From positions 1 through 29,671 of the IMG/VR virus record IMGVR_UViG_3300013372_001792: DNA of 29,671 bases, one strand, 5' to 3'. Positions 5,848 to 15,651 of the stretch are shown one piece after another (the stretch's first letter is position 1; the number at the start of each line of letters is the position of its first letter). The stretch is from a virus. Both the position numbers and the translations under genes were made by a program. The notes beneath the pieces were generated by a model. The model was given only the letters and a program-made list of their open reading frames with translations, was not told the origin of the DNA and ran no database searches.

Positions 5848-6348
5848 ATGCGAATTTTAACACTAGATAACGAATTTTACAATTTAGAAACACTACCCGA
5901 TGAGGTAGACGATTTACGTTTTGCGATACTAGACAATAGTAATCCTCAAAATGTAGACTATCATTATATACCATTAATCTTTTTGGAAAGTTTCAATAGT
6001 CCTGCACTTGTATTACATATTGGTGATAGGACATTGAAGATGCCGGTAGACTGGCAGATATTAATCGGTGAACCTGAGATGGGCGACTTAGAAACATTAC
6101 CGTTAACAAGTATCAATGATAGAGGATTTAAAGCATTTGAGTTTAATCCACTAAGTGCATTCAGACCTAGCTTTCTTGACATTGAAATATTAGATATATA
6201 CCATGATGTAACTTGGTATGCACCTCGGTTGAAGAACGGACAATTTTTGTGTATTCCTATCGATGATGGACTTAAACCAAGATGTGTTTATTTTGTAAAA
6301 GAAATTAGTAGAAATTGTGAAATTATAGATTACAATCAGGCATTCTAA
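5848..6348 (+). CDS. Conserved hypothetical protein, leaderless start
   Basis: A 166-residue acidic protein of mixed strand and helix (MRILTLDNEFYNLETLPDEV at the start), with no catalytic motif or membrane segment that I recognise. Notable conserved-looking parts are M-P-V-D-W-Q-I-L-I-G and P-L-T-S-I-N-D-R-G-F-K-A-F. The start is fixed by the promoter directly in front of it; no other ATG or SD competes. It overlaps the next gene by one base (TAATGG), so the gp62-like protein is made from the same mRNA. Its place between uvsW and a clamp-loader-like gene suggests replication, but that is context only. Confidence 0.75.
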   Translation: MRILTLDNEFYNLETLPDEVDDLRFAILDNSNPQNVDYHYIPLIFLESFNSPALVLHIGDRTLKMPVDWQILIGEPEMGDLETLPLTSINDRGFKAFEFNPLSAFRPSFLDIEILDIYHDVTWYAPRLKNGQFLCIPIDDGLKPRCVYFVKEISRNCEIIDYNQAF

Positions 6349-6935
6349 TGGCAACCAAAGCACCAGCAGATGAGAAATTTCAAAACATAGATTTTGATTT
6401 GTTTGATGCACTTTCTGCATTAGATAAAAAAGACTATGGATATTTGGATCGATTAACAGAAGAACAACAAAAGAAATTTGTTCCTTATATGATGACGCAT
6501 TGGATGAGTGCTGTCAAGGGTGCTAGTGACATACAAGGTTATTACTTATTAAGTGTAGAAGCCGCAGTCAATAAACACTTATTCAATGAACACGTGATGA
6601 AACATCCTAAGTTACAATGGCTTATGTTATGTGCTAGCGGCTTGGGTGCAGGAAAACATTATCATCAATGGATACCTCAATTATCAAAAGGCACACGTGA
6701 ACTAAAAGAAACTCCCAATAAGAAGGATGTTAAAGAGTATTACAAAAAGATTTATCCTAAAACAGATGATGAAACATTGGATAAGGTTAGTCTACAATTT
6801 GTAGAAGAACAGAAGAAGAAAGTTTATTTGGCAAAAAGATTCCCTTCTCTGAAGAAAGATGATATTGAGACATTAGCGTTAGTAGTAACAGATGAAGATA
6901 TTAACCAATATGAAAAAGACAACGGCAACGATTGA
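6348..6935 (+). CDS. Probable clamp-loader small subunit (gp62-like)
   Basis: A 195-residue helical protein. The pattern F-V-P-Y-M-M-T-H-W-M-S-A-V near residue 45, a helix with N-K-H-L-F, then W-L-M-L-C-A-S-G-L-G-A-G-K-H-Y-H-Q-W-I near residue 95 resembles the short clamp-loader proteins of marine T4-like phages, where (from memory) a PFM-x-x-x-W-x-S motif is followed by a basic K-x-R-Y-x-x-W-I block. In T4, gp62 pairs with gp44 to load the gp45 sliding clamp. T4 gp62 has 187 residues, a similar length. No Walker motif is present, as expected for gp62. gp44 and gp45 are not in the window, so context does not confirm this. A different helical replication protein is possible. Confidence 0.5.
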   Translation: MATKAPADEKFQNIDFDLFDALSALDKKDYGYLDRLTEEQQKKFVPYMMTHWMSAVKGASDIQGYYLLSVEAAVNKHLFNEHVMKHPKLQWLMLCASGLGAGKHYHQWIPQLSKGTRELKETPNKKDVKEYYKKIYPKTDDETLDKVSLQFVEEQKKKVYLAKRFPSLKKDDIETLALVVTDEDINQYEKDNGND

Positions 6936-7617
6936 TGATATAAAGTTTGGCTGTGAGTTTTGCAAACGTGAATTCATACGTGAGCGTACTTTAATTAGTC
7001 ATTTATGTGAACAGAAAAACCGATGGTTAGCTAAAGACCAAAAAGGTAATAGATTGGCATTTCAATGCTGGTTACAATTTTATGCTAAGAATAGCATGAG
7101 TAAAACCAAGAATAAAACGTATGAAGAATTTATTAAAAACCCATACTACACTGCATTTATTAAGTTTGGCAATTACTGTAATGATGTAAATGTTATCAAC
7201 GTAAGTCGTTATGTAGATTGGTTACTAAGAGAAAATACAAAAATTGATAATTGGAATAGTGATGTTACATATACTAAATTTTTGATTGAGTATTTAAAAA
7301 ATGAAAACCCATTTGATGCATTAGCACGAAGTGTAGAATGTTGTGCAAATTTAGGTGAAGCAGATAATCTATTACCCAATGACTTGTTTCGGTATGGCAA
7401 TGCAAATAAAATTTGTTATGGTATAACAACGGGTAAAATAAGCCCTTGGATGTTATATCAAAGCGATAGCGGTGTCCATTTCTTAGATACACTGAGTCAG
7501 GATCATGTTAGAATAGTGATTGATTATATAAATCCAGAACAATGGGCATTAAAGTTTAACCGTGAACCAGACCTCGCAAGACAAATTAAAGACACCCTTA
7601 GACAAGCCGGCTATTAA
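6910..7617 (+). CDS. Zinc-finger protein of unknown function
   Basis: A 235-residue protein. I start it at ATG 6910 (MKKTTATIDD); an in-frame ATG at 6892 lies deeper inside the previous gene. Near residues 14-33 there is a C-x2-C-x12-H-x-C finger (C-E-F-C-K-R-E-F-I-R-E-R-T-L-I-S-H-L-C), a C2H2-like metal site with a final Cys. The rest is helical, with a repeated aromatic pattern (F-x-x-Y-x-x-N-P-Y-Y-T-A-F-I-K-F-G-N-Y) and a C-terminal H-V-R-I-V-I-D-Y-I-N-P-E-Q-W. This suggests a nucleic-acid-binding protein, possibly a transcription or nuclease factor, but I know no defined family. It overlaps the upstream gene by 26 bases and the downstream one by up to 56. Confidence 0.7.
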   Translation: MKKTTATIDDIKFGCEFCKREFIRERTLISHLCEQKNRWLAKDQKGNRLAFQCWLQFYAKNSMSKTKNKTYEEFIKNPYYTAFIKFGNYCNDVNVINVSRYVDWLLRENTKIDNWNSDVTYTKFLIEYLKNENPFDALARSVECCANLGEADNLLPNDLFRYGNANKICYGITTGKISPWMLYQSDSGVHFLDTLSQDHVRIVIDYINPEQWALKFNREPDLARQIKDTLRQAGY

Positions 7618-7802: not shown

Positions 7803-7919
7803 ATGATAGTTGAAATTTTTTTATACGGTTTTATAACAGCATTTGGCTGGTGGACTGCACAACATTATGTAATTGAGCCTCATTTTCCACCGCCTATTGA
7901 AAAGAAAGTAGAAAAATGA
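7803..7919 (+). CDS. 38-residue single-pass membrane protein
   Basis: ATG 7803 follows the previous stop by one base and the TGA overlaps the next start (ATGA 7916-7919). Residues 3-20 (V-E-I-F-L-Y-G-F-I-T-A-F-G-W-W-T-A) form one hydrophobic segment. The remainder, H-Y-V-I-E-P-H-F-P-P-P-I-E, is proline-rich and ends in a lysine/glutamate tail. Such tiny proteins with a G-W-W-T/S-A motif, followed by I-x-P and prolines, occur in marine T4-like phages as far as I recall, with unknown role. The tight fit between two genes and the typical inner-membrane profile support a real gene. An effect on the host membrane is inference. Confidence 0.7.
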   Translation: MIVEIFLYGFITAFGWWTAQHYVIEPHFPPPIEKKVEK

Positions 7920-8563
7920 AACCTACAATAGCACTATTTGTTTCTGACCCTAAGTGTTCAGTACAGAGTGCCAATGGTATGATTAGTTCGTTGGATCGCT
8001 ACTATAATTTTAAATTGTTTTCGAAGAATAAATTAGAATACAATTTTTTTGATAATGTTGATATGATAGCAATGCCCGGCGGATTGGGAGATGCGGCTTC
8101 ATTTGAAACATTGTTTAAAAATAACGGAGATAGAGTACGTGAATTTATTCACAATGATGGAAGATATCTTGGTATATGTATGGGTGCATATTGGGCAGGC
8201 AAGCATTATCTTAATGTGTTGCATGATGTTGATGCAGTTCAATATTTGAAAAGACCCGGGACTGACACACGTAGACCACATGCAAAGAATATATCTATCA
8301 ATTGGGACGGAATGTCAACTAAAATGTTTTGGTATGATGGTTGTGCATTAGTGGGTGATAAAACTAAATTTGAAACAGTAGCTACTTACGAAGCAAATAA
8401 TGATAGTATGGCTATCTATCAGAATCGTATAGGATTAATCGGCTGCCACCCAGAAAGTCAACAATTTTGGTATGATGGGTATTCATATCTAAAGGGAAAA
8501 TACCATGGAGGTTGGCATCATAAGTTGTTGTTAGAATTTACTAATCAATTAATGAGAAGATAA
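7916..8563 (+). CDS. Class I glutamine amidotransferase-like (BPL_N-type) protein
   Basis: A 215-residue protein with the class I amidotransferase fold. The nucleophile elbow is G-I-C-M-G-A with Cys88; an M-P-G-G loop lies at 53-56, and His177 with Glu179 in G-C-H-P-E-S complete a Cys-His-Glu triad. The order and spacing fit the N-terminal domain found in biotin-protein-ligase-like proteins (BPL_N), which are amidotransferase-like but whose substrates are mostly unknown. Such domains release ammonia from glutamine or act on other amides; in phages some contribute to DNA base hypermodification. No synthetase partner is fused. It is embedded in the small F-x-L-R-W gene row and overlaps both neighbours (ATGA before, TAATG after). 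The family call is firm; the substrate is unknown. Confidence 0.8.
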   Translation: MKPTIALFVSDPKCSVQSANGMISSLDRYYNFKLFSKNKLEYNFFDNVDMIAMPGGLGDAASFETLFKNNGDRVREFIHNDGRYLGICMGAYWAGKHYLNVLHDVDAVQYLKRPGTDTRRPHAKNISINWDGMSTKMFWYDGCALVGDKTKFETVATYEANNDSMAIYQNRIGLIGCHPESQQFWYDGYSYLKGKYHGGWHHKLLLEFTNQLMRR

Positions 8564-8820
8564 TGACACTAGAAGATGAAATTGCTGAATCTATTGCTAA
8601 AGAATACTTTGGGAATATGGACTTTGAGATTACAAAAGACCTTTTAGTTGAGTCAGGTTGGTATGTTATTGAGTTACCTACTTTAGGAAGTAGAAAACAG
8701 GCAATTGATATCAAAGATTGGGTAACAGAAAAATGCAAAAAAAATGTTATATTTAGGGGGAGAATTTTTGTGTTCAAGTCTAAAAAAGAGGCTGAATGGT
8801 TTAGTTTGAGGTGGCAATGA
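8563..8820 (+). CDS. Small F-x-L-R-W family protein, copy 2
   Basis: 85 residues, starting at ATG overlapping the amidotransferase stop (TAATG). N-terminal helix D-E-I-A-E-S-I-A-K-E-Y-F; then S-G-W-Y-V-I-E-L-P, a helix K-D-W-V-T-E-K-C, a strand pair N-V-I-F-R-G-R-I-F-V-F, and the closing helix K-K-E-A-E-W-F-S-L-R-W-Q. The final bases GGTGGCAATGA also form the start of the next copy, so the gene junction itself belongs to the duplicated unit. Confidence 0.8.
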   Translation: MTLEDEIAESIAKEYFGNMDFEITKDLLVESGWYVIELPTLGSRKQAIDIKDWVTEKCKKNVIFRGRIFVFKSKKEAEWFSLRWQ

Positions 8821-9122
8821 TTAAGAAAAGACAAATGACTAATAAGTTATATGGATCTAACGGTGGTTGGGCGGCAAAACGTAGTGTCAACTATGCGGGC
8901 ATAGGATATGCGTATGACATGCCCTATCATCAGATTGATCCTATAATATCACCGAATGAATGGAATAAAATGATTGCTTGGTGTGTTAACACATTTGGAC
9001 CTAGTGGCACACCTGGTGCTCCCGGTGTATGGACGCCCGGCGATAGATGGTATGCTAACAATGCTAAGTTTTGGTTTAGAGACAAGCCAGATTGCGAATG
9101 GTTTCTGTTGAGGTTTCAATGA
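8817..9122 (+). CDS. Small F-x-L-R-W family protein, copy 3
   Basis: 101 residues. I use ATG 8817, which overlaps the previous stop (ATGA), rather than a GTG at 8811. The N-terminal half is basic and glycine/tyrosine-rich (for example Y-A-G-I-G-Y-A-Y-D-M-P-Y-H). The C-terminal half has the family pattern: W-N-K-M-I-A-W-C-V-N-T-F-G helix, a loop rich in G and P, W-Y-A-N-N-A-K-F-W-F strand, and D-K-P-D-C-E-W-F-L-L-R-F-Q. Confidence 0.8.
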   Translation: MIKKRQMTNKLYGSNGGWAAKRSVNYAGIGYAYDMPYHQIDPIISPNEWNKMIAWCVNTFGPSGTPGAPGVWTPGDRWYANNAKFWFRDKPDCEWFLLRFQ

Positions 9123-9337
9123 TTAATTTACATGAATGGAAATGGGCAGGTAGCAATTATGTTAGAGTTATTGACACTATGGATGTTGATATAAGTTATA
9201 CTAAAAGACAAGAAATCTACGATTGGTGTAGTGAACATAATATTGAAATAGAATATCAAGGTACTATGATGGGAACTGATGTTTGGCGTGTCAAAGATGA
9301 AAAACAACGATTGTGGTTTAAGTTGAGATGGCAGTAA
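9119..9337 (+). CDS. Small F-x-L-R-W family protein, copy 4
   Basis: 72 residues from ATG 9119, again in an ATGA overlap. The 28 bases around this junction closely match those around 8799-8826, showing a recent-looking duplication of gene end plus next start. The family core is Y-T-K-R-Q-E-I-Y-D-W-C-S-E-H helix, I-E-I-E-Y-Q-G strand, V-W-R-V strand and E-K-Q-R-L-W-F-K-L-R-W-Q. Confidence 0.8.
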   Translation: MINLHEWKWAGSNYVRVIDTMDVDISYTKRQEIYDWCSEHNIEIEYQGTMMGTDVWRVKDEKQRLWFKLRWQ

Positions 9338-9552
9338 CTATACCTCTCAATGATTATGGACTAAAGCCAAAACAAGAACAATGGCTTATGAAAAATGTAG
9401 GACCTAGAATGTTCTATTTACATAATAGCATTGGTGGACAAGGCTGGGTAGCTAAACAGCAATGGGAGCCTGGTATGGTAACTAAGAGATGGTATCTAAC
9501 ACTAGAAGATGAAAAACTTGCTACCTTTTTTGCAATAAAGTTTTCATCGTGA
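9328..9552 (+). CDS. Small F-x-L-R-W family protein, copy 5 (diverged end)
   Basis: 74 residues from ATG 9328, overlapping the previous gene by 10 bases. It has L-K-P-K-Q-E-Q-W-L-M-K-N-V-G helix, a middle region with two W residues, and ends L-E-D-E-K-L-A-T-F-F-A-I-K-F-S-S, a diverged form of the closing motif in which L-R-W is replaced by I-K-F. Confidence 0.75.
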   Translation: MAVTIPLNDYGLKPKQEQWLMKNVGPRMFYLHNSIGGQGWVAKQQWEPGMVTKRWYLTLEDEKLATFFAIKFSS

Positions 9553-9761
9553 TTAAACTCAAACTAGAAATATCTGCGACAAAGGCAATAGAGAGAGCAA
9601 ACGAATTACGAGAAGCCGGTTATGTTCAGGGCGTAGATTTTGATTTTACATTTTACCCTAGTATACAGGATAGATTTAATGGTCCGGCTAAACCTAGTTA
9701 TGTACAATTTCACTTTTACAAAGAATCATTAGCAACATATTATGGATTAAAATGGCAATAA
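9549..9761 (+). CDS. Small F-x-L-R-W family protein, copy 6 (GTG start)
   Basis: 70 residues from GTG 9549 in a GTGA overlap with the previous stop. Helix S-A-T-K-A-I-E-R-A-N-E-L-R-E-A-G, strand V-D-F-D-F-T-F-Y, loop with a G-P-A-K-P-S-Y, strand V-Q-F-H-F and closing helix K-E-S-L-A-T-Y-Y-G-L-K-W-Q. The GTG start seems forced by the overlap rule that all junctions in this row follow. Confidence 0.75.
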   Translation: MIKLKLEISATKAIERANELREAGYVQGVDFDFTFYPSIQDRFNGPAKPSYVQFHFYKESLATYYGLKWQ

Positions 9762-10036
9762 TGAAACCTACAGGTACATTTGTACCACTACCAATCAGAC
9801 ATGATGAAATTGATTATGTGATACAGGACCGTAATTATATGGGTAGCAGAAACAGAACTTCATATGTATATGAGTGTATAAAGAAAAAAGAAGATCCAAC
9901 TGTAATTGTCTCATGGTGCAGACGTAATTTCGGTGAAAGAGGGGTGGGTTGGGACTTTCTTTTTACCTCAGGAAATGTTACAATCATACTGTGGGATGAC
10001 AAATTTAAAACTATGTATGAACTATGGAAAAATTGA
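9752..10036 (+). CDS. Small F-x-L-R-W family protein, copy 7 (most diverged)
   Basis: Up to 94 residues from ATG 9752; ATG 9761 in a TAATG overlap would remove three. The C-terminal half has the family helix T-V-I-V-S-W-C-R-R-N-F-G-E-R-G, strand G-W-D-F-L-F, strand V-T-I-I-L-W and helix D-K-F-K-T-M-Y-E-L-W-K-N, with Y-x-L-W in place of F-x-L-R-W. The N-terminal half is unlike the others. It overlaps endonuclease VII by 13 bases. Confidence 0.65.
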   Translation: MAIMKPTGTFVPLPIRHDEIDYVIQDRNYMGSRNRTSYVYECIKKKEDPTVIVSWCRRNFGERGVGWDFLFTSGNVTIILWDDKFKTMYELWKN

Positions 10037-10425
10037 TATCAAAGATTTGTAACCGATGCAAATGTATTAAACCATTGAATCAATTTGGTAACGATAGTGG
10101 TGGTAAAAAATTACGGTCTGATTGCAGAGTATGTGATAGTACACTGGCTAAAGAACGTATTGAAATAAGAAAAACTGCACCACCGATTCCTTACAACCAT
10201 ATTTGCCCTGTGTGCGAACAAACAGAAGAACAATTAAATGAAAATATTAATCCAACACTACGCAAAAAAGGTAGACCATGGGTGATGGATCATAATCATA
10301 CTGAAAAAACATTTCGCGGTTGGTTGTGTAGAAAATGCAATTTAGGATGTGGTAATTTTAAAGACAACCCTGAATTATTAGAAAAGGCAGCAAAATATTT
10401 AAGAGAAACACAAAATGGCAAATGA
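10024..10425 (+). CDS. 49: Recombination endonuclease VII (gp49-like)
   Basis: A 133-residue Holliday-junction resolvase of the T4 gp49 family, which cleaves branched DNA during packaging and recombination. The family core is near residues 85-125: V-M-D-H-N-H, then R-G-W-L-C-R-K-C-N-L-G-C-G, then K-D-N-P-E-L-L and A-A-K-Y-L. The DHNH histidines form the His-Me finger site and C-x2-C pairs bind zinc. An additional N-terminal zinc ribbon (C-N-R-C-K-C near residue 8 and C-R-V-C near 37) is present, as in many marine relatives. T4 gp49 has 157 residues and a C-terminal dimer region, which is shorter here. It sits between the small-protein row and the DEDDh exonuclease, overlapping both. Confidence 0.88.
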   Translation: MEKLISKICNRCKCIKPLNQFGNDSGGKKLRSDCRVCDSTLAKERIEIRKTAPPIPYNHICPVCEQTEEQLNENINPTLRKKGRPWVMDHNHTEKTFRGWLCRKCNLGCGNFKDNPELLEKAAKYLRETQNGK

Positions 10426-10975
10426 TGTAATGATAGATATTGAAAGTTTGAACACTACACCTGATTGTGTAATACTTACTATCGGCGCAGTTAGATTCGA
10501 TCCCAAAGGTACTGGCGTTGTTGAAAAGTTAGAACTACGACCTACTGTTGAGGATCAAACAGAAATATATAATAGGAGTATAAATGAAGATACATTACGT
10601 TGGTGGAGTACACAGAGTCCTGAAGCACTTGAAGAGGCAATGGGAGAGAATGGGAGAACATCATTTAAAGACTGCATGGAGACACTCTATAAGTTTTGCT
10701 GGAATAGGCGTTGTGTTTGGAGTAACGGTGCTAGTTTTGATTGCGTTGTTATGGAACATGCTTGGAGACAAACAAGTGACAAACCAAATCCTATACCCTG
10801 GCCATTTTGGTCAGTCAGGGATACCAGAACTCTATACGACATTACAGGAGTCAAACTCAAAGACGGTGGACACGTTACCAGCCACAAAGCGGTAGAAGAT
10901 GCTGAACGTCAGGCTATTGTTGTACAGCAAGCATATATGAAATTAATAAAAGCAGGATTAGTTGAACACAAATGA
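10415..10975 (+). CDS. dexA: DEDDh 3'-5' exonuclease, DexA-like
   Basis: A 186-residue exonuclease of the DEDDh (RNase T/DexA) class. Catalytic residues are D8 and E10 in M-I-D-I-E-S, D109 in S-N-G-A-S-F-D, and H157 with D162 in H-K-A-V-E-D. The segment T-L-R-W-W-S-T-Q-S-P-E-A matches the T-I-E-W-W-x-x-Q-S-P-E-A of T4 DexA as I remember it, which makes DexA the best comparison, although this protein is shorter than the 227 residues of T4 DexA. It also fits the related Rv2179c-like exoribonuclease family, so the substrate could be DNA or RNA. It overlaps endonuclease VII by 11 bases and the cytidylyltransferase-like gene by 4. Confidence 0.82.
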   Translation: MANDVMIDIESLNTTPDCVILTIGAVRFDPKGTGVVEKLELRPTVEDQTEIYNRSINEDTLRWWSTQSPEALEEAMGENGRTSFKDCMETLYKFCWNRRCVWSNGASFDCVVMEHAWRQTSDKPNPIPWPFWSVRDTRTLYDITGVKLKDGGHVTSHKAVEDAERQAIVVQQAYMKLIKAGLVEHK

Positions 10976-11439
10976 AAATCGGATTTAATTGTAGTAGTTT
11001 TGATTTGTTTCATGCCGGACATGTAACAATGTTAAAGATGGAAAAAGAATTGTGCGACTATTTAATAGTTGCATTACAAGTTGACCCCACGATTGATAGA
11101 CCGGGTGTTAAAAACAAACCATGTCAAAGTGTATATGAACGCTATGTACAATTGCAGGCATGTAAATATGTGGATGAAATTTTGGTATACTCGACCGAAT
11201 ACGATTTACTACAAATGTTAATGACCCAAACTATTCATATTCGGTTTCTAAGTGAAGAATATGTTAATAGAGATTTCACTGGAAAACAATATTGTATTGA
11301 CAATGACATTGAATTGCACTATCATAAGAGACAACATAACTATAGCAGTAGCGAACTACGTGGTAGAGTTGCAAAATTAGAAAACATGAAAGATGAAACA
11401 GTTAGTATCCCGCAACATTCACCTGAACTTTTAAAATGA
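10972..11439 (+). CDS. Cytidylyltransferase-like nucleotidyltransferase
   Basis: A 155-residue protein of the glycerol-3-phosphate cytidylyltransferase (TagD/HxGH) family. H-A-G-H at residues 14-17 follows N-C-S-S-F-D-L-F, the nucleotide-binding motif; R-Y-V-Q-L at 57-61 and the substrate loop Y-S-S-S-E-L-R at 124-130 correspond to the ISTSxxR motif. Enzymes of this family join a phosphate-containing group to CMP or AMP, for example making CDP-glycerol. The family normally acts on cell-envelope or cofactor precursors; here a role in DNA or sugar modification or in nucleotide metabolism is possible, and the substrate cannot be told. It starts at ATGA after the exonuclease and overlaps the DnaE-like gene the same way. 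Confidence 0.82.
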   Translation: MKIGFNCSSFDLFHAGHVTMLKMEKELCDYLIVALQVDPTIDRPGVKNKPCQSVYERYVQLQACKYVDEILVYSTEYDLLQMLMTQTIHIRFLSEEYVNRDFTGKQYCIDNDIELHYHKRQHNYSSSELRGRVAKLENMKDETVSIPQHSPELLK

Positions 11440-12017
11440 AATTTAACTCAGACATTGATATTGACTTTGGTAACAGAGACAAGATATTAGAACATATCAA
11501 ACACATCCCTGCGGCAATGCGTAAAGTTGATCCTATACGTAAACATGCTACTGGTATCTATGTTACTGATATACCATATGATGCGATTAATCATATGTCT
11601 AACTTAGATTACAGTGAAGCTGAAAAGCGTGGATATATAAAATTAGATTTCTTAAATGTGCATGTCTATGACAAAGTACGTGACGAACAACATTTAATTG
11701 AGTTAATGCGTGAACCAAATTGGGAAAAACTTAATGATAGAGTGTTTGTTGAAAAGCTGATTCACTTAAGCAATCATTATAACAGTATGCAGAAGATGCC
11801 AGAACCTATTGATAGTATACCTAGACTGGCAATGTTTCTAGCAGTTATCAGACCATCAAAGAAACATTTAATTGGAAAATCTTGGCGTGAAGTGGCAAAA
11901 ACAGTATGGGATGATGATAAGACAGGGTATCACTTTAAGAAAAGTCATAGTATTGCCTATGCACAATTAGTCGTTGTGCATATAAATCTATTAGACTCAG
12001 GACATTCGTTTGACTAG
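11436..12017 (+). CDS. Miniature DnaE (DNA polymerase III alpha)-like protein
   Basis: 193 residues that align, in order, with motifs spread over about 400 residues of bacterial DnaE. S-D-I-D-I-D-F-G-N-R-D at 5-15 matches the P-D-F/I-D-V-D-F catalytic motif; R-K-H-A-T-G-I-Y-V at 35-43 matches the G-K-H-A-G-G-V-V motif; G-Y-I-K-L-D-F-L at 66-73 matches the G-L-V-K-F-D-F-L motif with the third catalytic Asp. Then A-V-I-R-P-S matches A-L-F-R-P-G-P, and F-K-K-S-H-S-I-A-Y matches F-N-K-S-H-x-x-A-Y. All three catalytic aspartates (D8, D10, D71) are kept, while the PHP domain, thumb, most of the fingers and the clamp-binding tail are absent. It is either a compact nucleotide-binding/polymerase palm or a relic. 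It overlaps the convergent minus-strand gene by 21 bases. Confidence 0.7.
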   Translation: MKFNSDIDIDFGNRDKILEHIKHIPAAMRKVDPIRKHATGIYVTDIPYDAINHMSNLDYSEAEKRGYIKLDFLNVHVYDKVRDEQHLIELMREPNWEKLNDRVFVEKLIHLSNHYNSMQKMPEPIDSIPRLAMFLAVIRPSKKHLIGKSWREVAKTVWDDDKTGYHFKKSHSIAYAQLVVVHINLLDSGHSFD

Positions 12018-12377
12018 AGTAATTGATTTACGTTTACTTTTACGTTTTGCTAGTTCTAACATACTGCATATTGGGCCATGCACTATTGTTAGACTTTTAT
12101 TGTTGAATGTACGAATGTACGGTTTGAAGGGTTCCCAGTCGTTTTTAAGAAACATATTTATGGGTATTAATCTATTACTTTCCCACCACCATTGGTCACC
12201 TAATATTAGAAATTGTTCCCTAAGATCCGGATGTATAATAGATCCATAGTCGTATATAGTGGTGACTATATCATCCCTATTTTGAACTATTCCTACATAG
12301 TCTTGGCCTGCGTAGGAACACACTGTAATAAAGGGGTGATTTTCTGTTAATTTTTTGAAAAATTCGTTATGAATCAT
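11997..12377 (-). CDS. Conserved hypothetical protein, convergent to the DnaE-like gene
   Basis: 126 residues. The N-terminal 100 residues form a compact domain of strands (F-I-T-V-C-S-Y-A-G-Q-D-Y-V-G-I-V-Q-N) with a W-W-W-E-S-N-R segment and F-L-K-N-D-W-E-P-F; the end (R-K-S-K-R-K-S) is basic. I recall near-identical patterns (Y-V-G-I-V-Q-N, D-x-W-W-W-E-S-N-R) in marine T4-like phages, so it is a conserved family without known function. It is the only minus-strand gene in the left two thirds of the window. A T4-type late promoter (12398-12405) precedes it, giving a leader of about 15 bases without SD. Its 3' end crosses into the plus-strand gene. Confidence 0.82.
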   Translation of the reverse strand: MIHNEFFKKLTENHPFITVCSYAGQDYVGIVQNRDDIVTTIYDYGSIIHPDLREQFLILGDQWWWESNRLIPINMFLKNDWEPFKPYIRTFNNKSLTIVHGPICSMLELAKRKSKRKSITLVKRMS

Positions 12378-13277: not shown

Positions 13278-14252
13278 ATGTTTGACATCCTTTCATTAAT
13301 TCCGGGTAGAAAGAAACAAACAGGTAGCGGTTGGACTAGCTTCAACGCTATTTGTTGTAACCAACGCGGACATAGAGAGGATAAAAGAAGTAGGGGCGGT
13401 ATAAAATTCGATGGTGTAAATAATTGGGTAATGCATTGTTTCAATTGCAGTTATAGCTGTAGCTTTACATTAGGCAAAAATATAAGTCCCAAGACAAGAC
13501 AATTTCTATTATGGTGTGGTATTGATAGTGACCAAATTCAAAGATGGAATTTAGAAAGTTTACAACACAAAGATTTATTAGACTTTAGTGGTAATCGTAA
13601 ACCACGAAGTAAAGTAAAATTTAAATCACGTGAGTTACCAATTGGTGAGACGTTAGATATAAACAATCCCAATCATTATCATTATATTGAATATTTAGAA
13701 AAACGATGCATTCATTATGATAGCTATCCTTTTATAGTAACTCCCAATGACAGAGGAAGAAATAGTAATAGGATTATCATTCCGTATACGTATATGGGGA
13801 AATCAGTGGGACACACTAGTAGGTACTTAGATAATAAAATACCTAAGTATATTAATGAGCAAGATGCAGGTTATGTATTCGGATATGATTTACAAAAACC
13901 TGAATACAGTATGTGTATTCTAGTTGAAGGAATCTTTGATGCATTGAGCATTAACGGTTGTGCTTTAACTCATAATACAATAAGTGATGACCAGGCTCAT
14001 TTACTTTCACAATTAAACAAACAGATTATTGTTGTACCTGATAGAGATAAGACAGGGCTAGATATAATTGACAGAGCATTGGAATTGGGGTATAGTGTAA
14101 GTTTACCTCCCTGGGATAAATCAATCAAGGATGTTAATGATGCAGTAATAAGATATGGTAAGCTACCTACATTACTAAGTATCATACAACACGCAACAAG
14201 TAGTAAGATAAAAATAGAATTAAGGAAAAAACAGATTGCTAAAGGAATATAA
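13278..14252 (+). CDS. 61: DNA primase, gp61-like
   Basis: A 324-residue primase that makes lagging-strand RNA primers with the gp41 helicase. The N-terminal zinc-binding domain has C26-C27, H32, C54 and C57 (C-F-N-C). The catalytic TOPRIM domain shows I-L-V-E-G at 214-218 with Glu217, D-A-L-S from 221 and V-P-D-R-D-K-T-G with Asp255 and Asp257. The C-terminus has S-I-K-D-V-N-D-A as in T4-like primases. Length fits T4 gp61 (342). It overlaps gp41 by 17 bases, matching their paired function. The start is fixed by the leaderless promoter. Confidence 0.9.
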   Translation: MFDILSLIPGRKKQTGSGWTSFNAICCNQRGHREDKRSRGGIKFDGVNNWVMHCFNCSYSCSFTLGKNISPKTRQFLLWCGIDSDQIQRWNLESLQHKDLLDFSGNRKPRSKVKFKSRELPIGETLDINNPNHYHYIEYLEKRCIHYDSYPFIVTPNDRGRNSNRIIIPYTYMGKSVGHTSRYLDNKIPKYINEQDAGYVFGYDLQKPEYSMCILVEGIFDALSINGCALTHNTISDDQAHLLSQLNKQIIVVPDRDKTGLDIIDRALELGYSVSLPPWDKSIKDVNDAVIRYGKLPTLLSIIQHATSSKIKIELRKKQIAKGI

Positions 14253-15651
14253 CACAGACGTTCAACGGCTCTTTTTACAAATGATGCTAACTAATGCAGA
14301 ATTGTATATTAGAGTTATGAATATTATGAATCCGCAGAACTTTGATCGGGCATTAAGACCTGTATCAGAATTTATGAAAGAGTACAGTGAGAAATATAGT
14401 ATACTACCGGATATAACACAAATAAAAGCAACAACAGGAATAGAACTTGTACTCATTGAAGATTTTGGTGATAGACACACTGAGTGGTTCTTAGAAGAAT
14501 TTGAATCATTTACTAAACGACAAGAACTAGAACGTGCTATTCTTAAGAGTGCCGATTTACTTGAGAAGGGTGAATTCGGACCAGTTGAGAAACTAATCAA
14601 AGACGCGGTGCAGATTAGTTTACAACGAGATATGGGTACAGATTACTTTGCTGATCCTAAAGCACGATTACACAAATACTTTAACGCAGGTGGACAACAA
14701 AGCACAGGTTGGCCTCAACTTGATAAACTATTGTACGGTGGATTTAGTCGCGGTGAATTGAATATTTTTGCAGGTGGTTCAGGTTCAGGTAAGTCATTAG
14801 TGATGATGAACATTGCATTGAATTGGTTGCAACAGGGACTTAGTGGGGTATATATTAGTTTAGAATTGAGTGAAGAATTAACCTCACTTAGAACAGATGC
14901 TATGTTGACTATGATGAGTACCAGAGACATTCGTAAGGATATTGACAGTACAGAACTTAAAGTTAAAATTGCAGGTAAAAAATCCGGTGATTATCGTGTT
15001 AAGGGCTTGCCAGCACAAAGTAATGTTAATGACATTAGGTCATATTTAAAAGAAGTACAAATTCAAACTGGAATTAAAATTGACTTTGTTATGATTGATT
15101 ATTTGGATCTAGTTATGCCGGTTAGTGTTAAAGTTAATCCCAATGACCAGTTTATTAAAGACAAGTATGTTAGTGAAGAATTACGTAATTTGTCTAAAGA
15201 ATTAGGTGTATTAATGGTAACAGCAAGTCAGTTGAATCGTAGTGCAGTTGATGAACAAGAATTTGACCATAGTCATATTGCAGGTGGTATCAGTAAGATT
15301 AATACAGCAGATAATGTGTTTGGTATTTTTACAAGTCGCAGTATGCGTGAGCGTGGAAAATATCAAATTCAATGTATGAAAAGTCGTAGTTCGACGGGTG
15401 TGGGACAGAAAATTGACTTGGAATACAACATTGAGACTATGCGTATTACTGACGAGGATCCTGACGGGTATGCAGACCAACAAGCAAAATATAGACCCAG
15501 TTCTAGTCCCAATGACATTATGAATCGATTAAAGCCCCAATCTACTGTAATTGATTCTATTACAGGAGAAATTGAGCCAATAAATACACGGGTTGTTGCT
15601 GATGTTCAGGGTTCAAAATTGAAATCATTGATAAACAATCTGAAAAGATGA
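14236..15651 (+). CDS. 41: Replicative DNA helicase, gp41-like (DnaB family)
   Basis: 471 residues, TTG start at 14236 within the end of the primase gene; the start M-L-K-E-Y-N-T-D-V-Q-R-L-F-L agrees with the usual beginning of this family, and the next ATG (14281) would cut that helix. The N-terminal domain is about 150 residues, the RecA-like motor follows: Walker A GGSGSGKS at 180-187, Walker B F-V-M-I-D-Y-L-D-L-V at 284-293, and a later T-A-S-Q-L-N-R-S (H3-like). It forms a hexamer with gp61 at the fork. The stop TGA overlaps the next late promoter box. Confidence 0.92.
   Translation: MLKEYNTDVQRLFLQMMLTNAELYIRVMNIMNPQNFDRALRPVSEFMKEYSEKYSILPDITQIKATTGIELVLIEDFGDRHTEWFLEEFESFTKRQELERAILKSADLLEKGEFGPVEKLIKDAVQISLQRDMGTDYFADPKARLHKYFNAGGQQSTGWPQLDKLLYGGFSRGELNIFAGGSGSGKSLVMMNIALNWLQQGLSGVYISLELSEELTSLRTDAMLTMMSTRDIRKDIDSTELKVKIAGKKSGDYRVKGLPAQSNVNDIRSYLKEVQIQTGIKIDFVMIDYLDLVMPVSVKVNPNDQFIKDKYVSEELRNLSKELGVLMVTASQLNRSAVDEQEFDHSHIAGGISKINTADNVFGIFTSRSMRERGKYQIQCMKSRSSTGVGQKIDLEYNIETMRITDEDPDGYADQQAKYRPSSSPNDIMNRLKPQSTVIDSITGEIEPINTRVVADVQGSKLKSLINNLKR

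Follow-up and report, generated by a model that had tools for sequence, protein, structure and literature searches.

Genes at the Locus

The window, that is, the whole stretch of viral DNA analysed here (29,671 nucleotides, IMG/VR record IMGVR_UViG_3300013372_001792), carries on its plus strand an ORF of 193 codons without an internal stop (Table 1). A first-pass annotation had read this ORF as a DnaE-like protein in which five motifs of bacterial DNA polymerase III (Pol III) alpha follow one another in the usual order, and the ORF and all five motifs were found as described. Its product is called the C-half below. The same annotation had placed a resolvase, a DEDDh exonuclease and a nucleotidyltransferase beside it; these neighbors are indeed there, as an endonuclease VII, a PF16473 exonuclease and a cytidylyltransferase-like protein.

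Table 1. Features in and around the C-half gene; residues are numbered in the C-half and equated with those of E. coli DnaE.
Feature	Position	Strand	Basis
DEDDh exonuclease, PF16473 (E 9e-34)	10415..10975	+	
Cytidylyltransferase-like protein (PF01467); overlaps the C-half gene by 4 bases	10972..11439	+	
Probable C-terminal subunit of a split minimal Pol III alpha (PHROG 11778), 193 aa	11436..12017	+	profile, model, motifs
D6-I-D8-I-D10; D6 = D401, D8 = D403 (catalytic), D10 = D405	11451..11465	+	E. coli alignment
H37..G40 = KHAGG motif of DnaE (H511, G514)	11544..11555	+	
K69-L-D71 = K553 and catalytic D555	11640..11648	+	
R139-P140-x-K142 = ALFRPG motif (R639, P640)	11850..11861	+	
F167..Y175 = FNKSHSAAY O-helix; H171 = steric gate H760	11934..11960	+	
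Convergent gene, PHROG 11637, 126 aa, no assigned function; overlaps the 3' end of the C-half gene	11997..12377	-	
T4-type DNA primase (phrog_47)	13278..14252	+	
DnaB-like replicative helicase (phrog_19)	14236..15651	+	

Homologues of the exonuclease were found within 1.2 kb upstream of the C-half gene in 111 of 147 loci, abutting it in 69. We do not claim this protein as a Pol III epsilon subunit, as it falls in PF16473 (Rv2179c-like) and its PF00929 match is sub-threshold. The cytidylyltransferase-like gene is shared by a minority of relatives, and the ATGA at the start of the C-half gene was not taken as a sign of coupling because a Met-Lys start gives it too. On the downstream side, homologues of both the primase and the DnaB-like helicase were present in 115 of 116 loci. 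The convergent PHROG 11637 gene sits in the interval from the C-half gene to this pair and keeps its place and orientation in 160 of the 165 loci with room for it, from environmental to enterobacterial jumbo phages. It was detected in 58 phage records, in the same phage groups as the C-half. In its product, a conserved WWW-x-[ST]-[NS]-R core is combined with a basic tail; searches with this protein yielded nothing in Pfam and nothing credible in PDB.

Farther upstream, positions 8563-10036 of the plus strand hold a row of six small ORFs (70 to 103 aa), several of which end alike (WFSLRWQ, WFLLRFQ, WFKLRWQ and YYGLKWQ). These endings suggest distant paralogues; the two tried against PHROG, those starting at 8563 and 9549, had no match. 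The adjoining ORF (7916-8563, plus strand) encodes a domain of the glutamine-amidotransferase/biotin-ligase N-terminal type (PF09825), and ORFs related to it lie near the C-half gene in about 10 of 118 loci.

The C-Half Is Related to the Palm of DnaE

The 193-residue protein matched PHROG 11778, annotated "DNA polymerase," with an E value of 6.8e-54. By tblastn, relatives were found in 63 phage records, nearly all of them large T4-like phages of 140 to 490 kb, such as Agrobacterium Atu_ph07, Sinorhizobium Phosso, Pseudomonas PA5oct and Paride, Cronobacter GAP32, Pectobacterium CBB, Klebsiella RaK2 and Escherichia 121Q. At least 324 IMG/VR contigs also carry one. Among the pairs with computable dS, dN was ~0.12 to 0.16 against a dS of 1.3 to 1.9. 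Single-sequence searches of Pfam and PDB with the C-half returned no match and the hhalign comparison with the single E. coli sequence was weak, so that a profile-versus-profile comparison of the C-half was needed. Two divergent queries, P0006 and P0004, each run singly against viral contigs, also gave no matches. With the DnaE profile, hhalign gave a probability of 97.1 (E 6.9e-11) versus 0.7 for the reversed control, which bears out the homology with the DnaE palm proposed at first reading. Taken together, the PHROG 11778 match, the wide spread of relatives, the DnaE profile match and a dN below dS show that the ORF is not a chance one.

Aligned with E. coli DnaE, the SDIDIDF of the C-half falls on PDFDVDF, and the palm motifs follow in the same order in both. 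The metals of DnaE are bound by D401, D403 and D555 (PMC3919608). The first-pass annotation had named D8, D10 and D71 as the catalytic residues. It was right about D8 and D71, but D10 corresponds to D405 and the residue it missed is D6. With that correction, its expectation that the three catalytic aspartates are kept among homologues held: D6, D8 and D71 were invariant in all 136 sequences of our alignment (135 distinct relatives plus the window sequence). So were D10, H37, G40, K69, R139, P140, K142, F167, H171 and Y175, while position 169 was Lys or Arg in 134. D405 is retained in all DnaE groups and replaced by Asn in PolC (PMC3919608). The PolC-type Asn was absent at D10, which was Asp in 136 of 136 sequences, marking the C-half as DnaE-type in sequence. 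In the O-helix, K169-S170-H171 align with K758-S759-H760 and Y175 with Y764. H760 has been proposed as the steric gate of Pol III alpha (PMC8485763), and the invariance of H171 argues for deoxynucleotide selection.

The C-half begins 5 residues before D6 and ends after the O-helix. The D8-H37 interval lacks the thumb, and the K142-F167 interval lacks most of the fingers. The length of 193 residues, the alignment and the structural model agree with the earlier statement that PHP, thumb, most of the fingers and the clamp-binding tail are gone. Such losses, which extend to the tau-binding region, would suit a noncatalytic DnaE mimic that has kept the fold and serves as a scaffold, senses nucleotides or acts as a decoy of the host polymerase, all the more as these phages own a family-B polymerase. 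We consider this unlikely. The three catalytic aspartates, K69, H37 and the steric-gate His, all invariant in the 136 sequences, are needless for a decoy, and the clamp- and tau-binding parts that a decoy could use are the very ones lost. The sensor and decoy roles raised in the first-pass annotation are thus disfavored.

Predicted Fold of the C-Half

A structure prediction had been proposed as a check on the assignment. The AlphaFold2 model of the C-half, built from 65 input sequences, had a pLDDT of 91.6 and a pTM of 0.81. The best eight Foldseek matches were all Pol III alpha, with probabilities of 0.72 to 0.99. Using VIA-align, the best score was obtained with the PolC-DNA-dGTP complex 3f2c (Z 9.4 over 188 of the 193 residues), and residues 1-193 could be superposed on residues 397-787 of E. 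coli 2hnh with a Z of 8.4 over 186 residues. Unrelated structures reached a Z of 3.8 at most.

A Separate Gene Encodes the GRGS Half in Relatives

The 172-residue protein CBB_328 of phage CBB matches PF07733 (2e-8) and carries GLGRGSSVSSYCLYLIG. It terminates at FLKW, just before the point where the DnaE chain runs on into D401, and the C-half of the same phage, gp287, begins where CBB_328 leaves off. The family of CBB_328 (PHROG 11127), hereafter the N-half, consists of proteins of ~170 residues encoded by a separate gene, and its profile matched DnaE at 98.0% (E 2.9e-13). Each of the 14 records searched with PF07733 had both halves and a single match, whose end fell between positions 89 and 99 of the 260-position profile; no full-length match was found in these 14 records. 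The end of the N-half is nearly fixed. Counted from the first GRGS residue, it came after 33 residues in 76 of 80 IMG/VR sequences and after 34 in the other 4, and in 20 paired records after 33 to 35.

The AlphaFold2 model of the N-half had a pLDDT of 89.0, and its residues 69-168 were superposed on E. coli residues 278-393 with a Z of 7.9 (8.4 on 5lew). The N-half stops at E. coli residue 393 and the C-half starts at 396 or 397, so that the two are adjacent without overlap, as expected of one palm cut in one loop. Residues 1-68 of the two N-halves compared (P0011 and P0008) had no Pol III match in the structure comparison and may form a separate small domain.

These data bear on the proposal that the 193-residue protein is a compact polymerase in its own right, which would make it, acting alone, the smallest C-family polymerase. 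It does contain all three catalytic aspartates and folds confidently by itself. However, the GRGS helix and the loop that complete a nucleotidyltransferase palm are absent from it and are found, in the relatives, in the co-occurring N-half, with a fixed cut point between the two. We therefore hold activity of the C-half alone to be very improbable, and the self-contained polymerase of the first-pass annotation is not upheld.

Both Halves Occur Together in Relatives

All 20 record pairs examined carry both halves, Atu_ph07, XacN1 and CM1 being among the genomes in which both are present. The distance between the two genes is 11 to 224 kb in named phages. A search of the window, a fragment of 29.7 kb, gave no N-half; in relatives this half is encoded tens of kb away from the C-half gene. 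Of the larger metagenome contigs, 32 were selected by the presence of one half, and the other half was there too in 18; in those lacking it, the expected partner position was mostly beyond the contig end, although not obviously so in one (G036). The distance matrices of the two halves correlated with r = 0.91 over 20 pairs, a value that co-inheritance alone would give. The retention of the GRGS half in all paired records is a further point against a noncatalytic mimic, for which this half is also needless.

We also considered a split intein but rejected it, because no more than a few residues separate EFLK from the end of the N-half, and the C-half opens directly at its motif. As there is no intein sequence at either end, we infer that the halves associate noncovalently.

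A family-B polymerase was detected in 12 of 14 related records, the two without it being metagenome contigs of 223 and 260 kb. The first-pass annotation had called a C-family palm beside a family-B polymerase unexpected. The combination is indeed odd but is not new, having been described by Iyer et al. in 2021.

A Two-Protein Polymerase Model

Comparison of the sequences and models shows that two conserved, co-inherited proteins jointly hold every catalytic palm and O-helix motif of DnaE that was compared, in the native order. We think it likely that the 193-residue protein is the C-terminal subunit of a trans-split minimal DnaE-type polymerase of large T4-like phages, whose halves pair into a dNTP-using enzyme. 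By sequence and model, the C-half contributes the metal-binding D6, D8 and D71, both the KHAGG and the RPG element, and the O-helix that bears the steric-gate His. The N-half contributes the GRGS helix and the loop that precedes D401 in DnaE, the cut falling in that loop just before D401. Joined without a covalent bond, the two would rebuild one active site for two metals and a dNTP and carry out primer extension over short distances. Little is left of the fingers segment with GADMLRRAMGKK, and the pair may therefore bind dNTPs only weakly.

An enzyme that lacks the thumb, the clamp-binding tail and most of the fingers is unlikely to replicate DNA processively, which favors synthesis near primers or in gaps. 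Our best guess is that the pair would make short DNA stretches distributively (primer extension, gap or repair synthesis) near the primase and the DnaB-type helicase, beside the phage family-B replicase. The absence of thumb and most of the fingers, which hold the primer-template in Pol III, would also fit a heterodimer that is a template-independent or very short-patch nucleotidyltransferase, acting for example in DNA end tailing or repair, rather than a template-directed polymerase. The Pol-beta type fold is common to many transferases, and exonuclease and endonuclease VII genes lie nearby. The retained O-helix and steric gate, as well as the primase and helicase linkage noted above, speak against such a transferase, which seems to us rather improbable. 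Within the preferred model of a split polymerase, one may speculate that the PHROG 11637 protein is the third component of a three-part thumbless C-family polymerase for primer-proximal synthesis alongside the family-B replicase, a role we regard as doubtful.

Relation to Known Split and Minimal Polymerases

Iyer et al. 2021 (PMC7824862) predicted that jumbo phages of group 2.2, Atu_ph07 included, have a minimal Pol III alpha split in two, with the N-terminal unit binding NTP and the C-terminal unit binding Mg2+ and the template, and read the split form as a model of the ancestral enzyme. As described there, the system has the same two-protein split, distant genes and accompanying family-B polymerase as the relatives of the window; we see no essential difference from that account, and the window, an environmental contig, is taken as a further member. 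Our analysis adds the residue map and shows that the cut site is fixed, that the steric gate is retained and that the convergent neighbor gene is conserved. The authors who described phage CBB noted CBB_328 as a "truncated" alpha subunit (PMC5259590), and the replication section of their paper draws no link to gp287; CBB_328 is the N-half of the same system. We found no experimental study of the split enzyme in the open-access literature.

E. coli DnaE is one chain of 1160 residues, whereas the phage system consists of two proteins of 193 and ~170 residues, keeps D405 as bacterial DnaE does, and lacks the PHP, thumb, most of the fingers, HhH, OB and CTD parts. If active, the pair would be the smallest C-family polymerase known to us and would show, as a natural two-piece version of the palm of the bacterial replicase, how small a part of Pol III suffices for catalysis. 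It would also raise the question of why a second polymerase, of bacterial type, is kept by a phage that already has a family-B replicase. The split form could be ancestral, as in the reading given by Iyer et al., or reduced. With the fixed cut site and the residue map, the 2021 prediction becomes directly testable with two small proteins.

Other C-family polymerases of phage contigs appear to be interrupted too. In phage contigs L093 to L098, the C-terminal part is a separate ORF (~5870-7464) which, in contrast to the C-half, starts beyond the D555 region and still has the fingers and the domains that follow; judged from the ORFs, this is a second, different split. The corresponding ORF of L099 (5872-8232) is broken after IIRPG by an insert that starts with CISGDT, ends with VHN before a Cys and looks like an HNH-bearing intein. 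In Bacteroides phage BS-TP1 (L290, 2825-4558), a 577-residue "DNA polymerase" annotated as PHP-containing has a GRGS-type match near its C-terminal end and is perhaps another split C-family polymerase.
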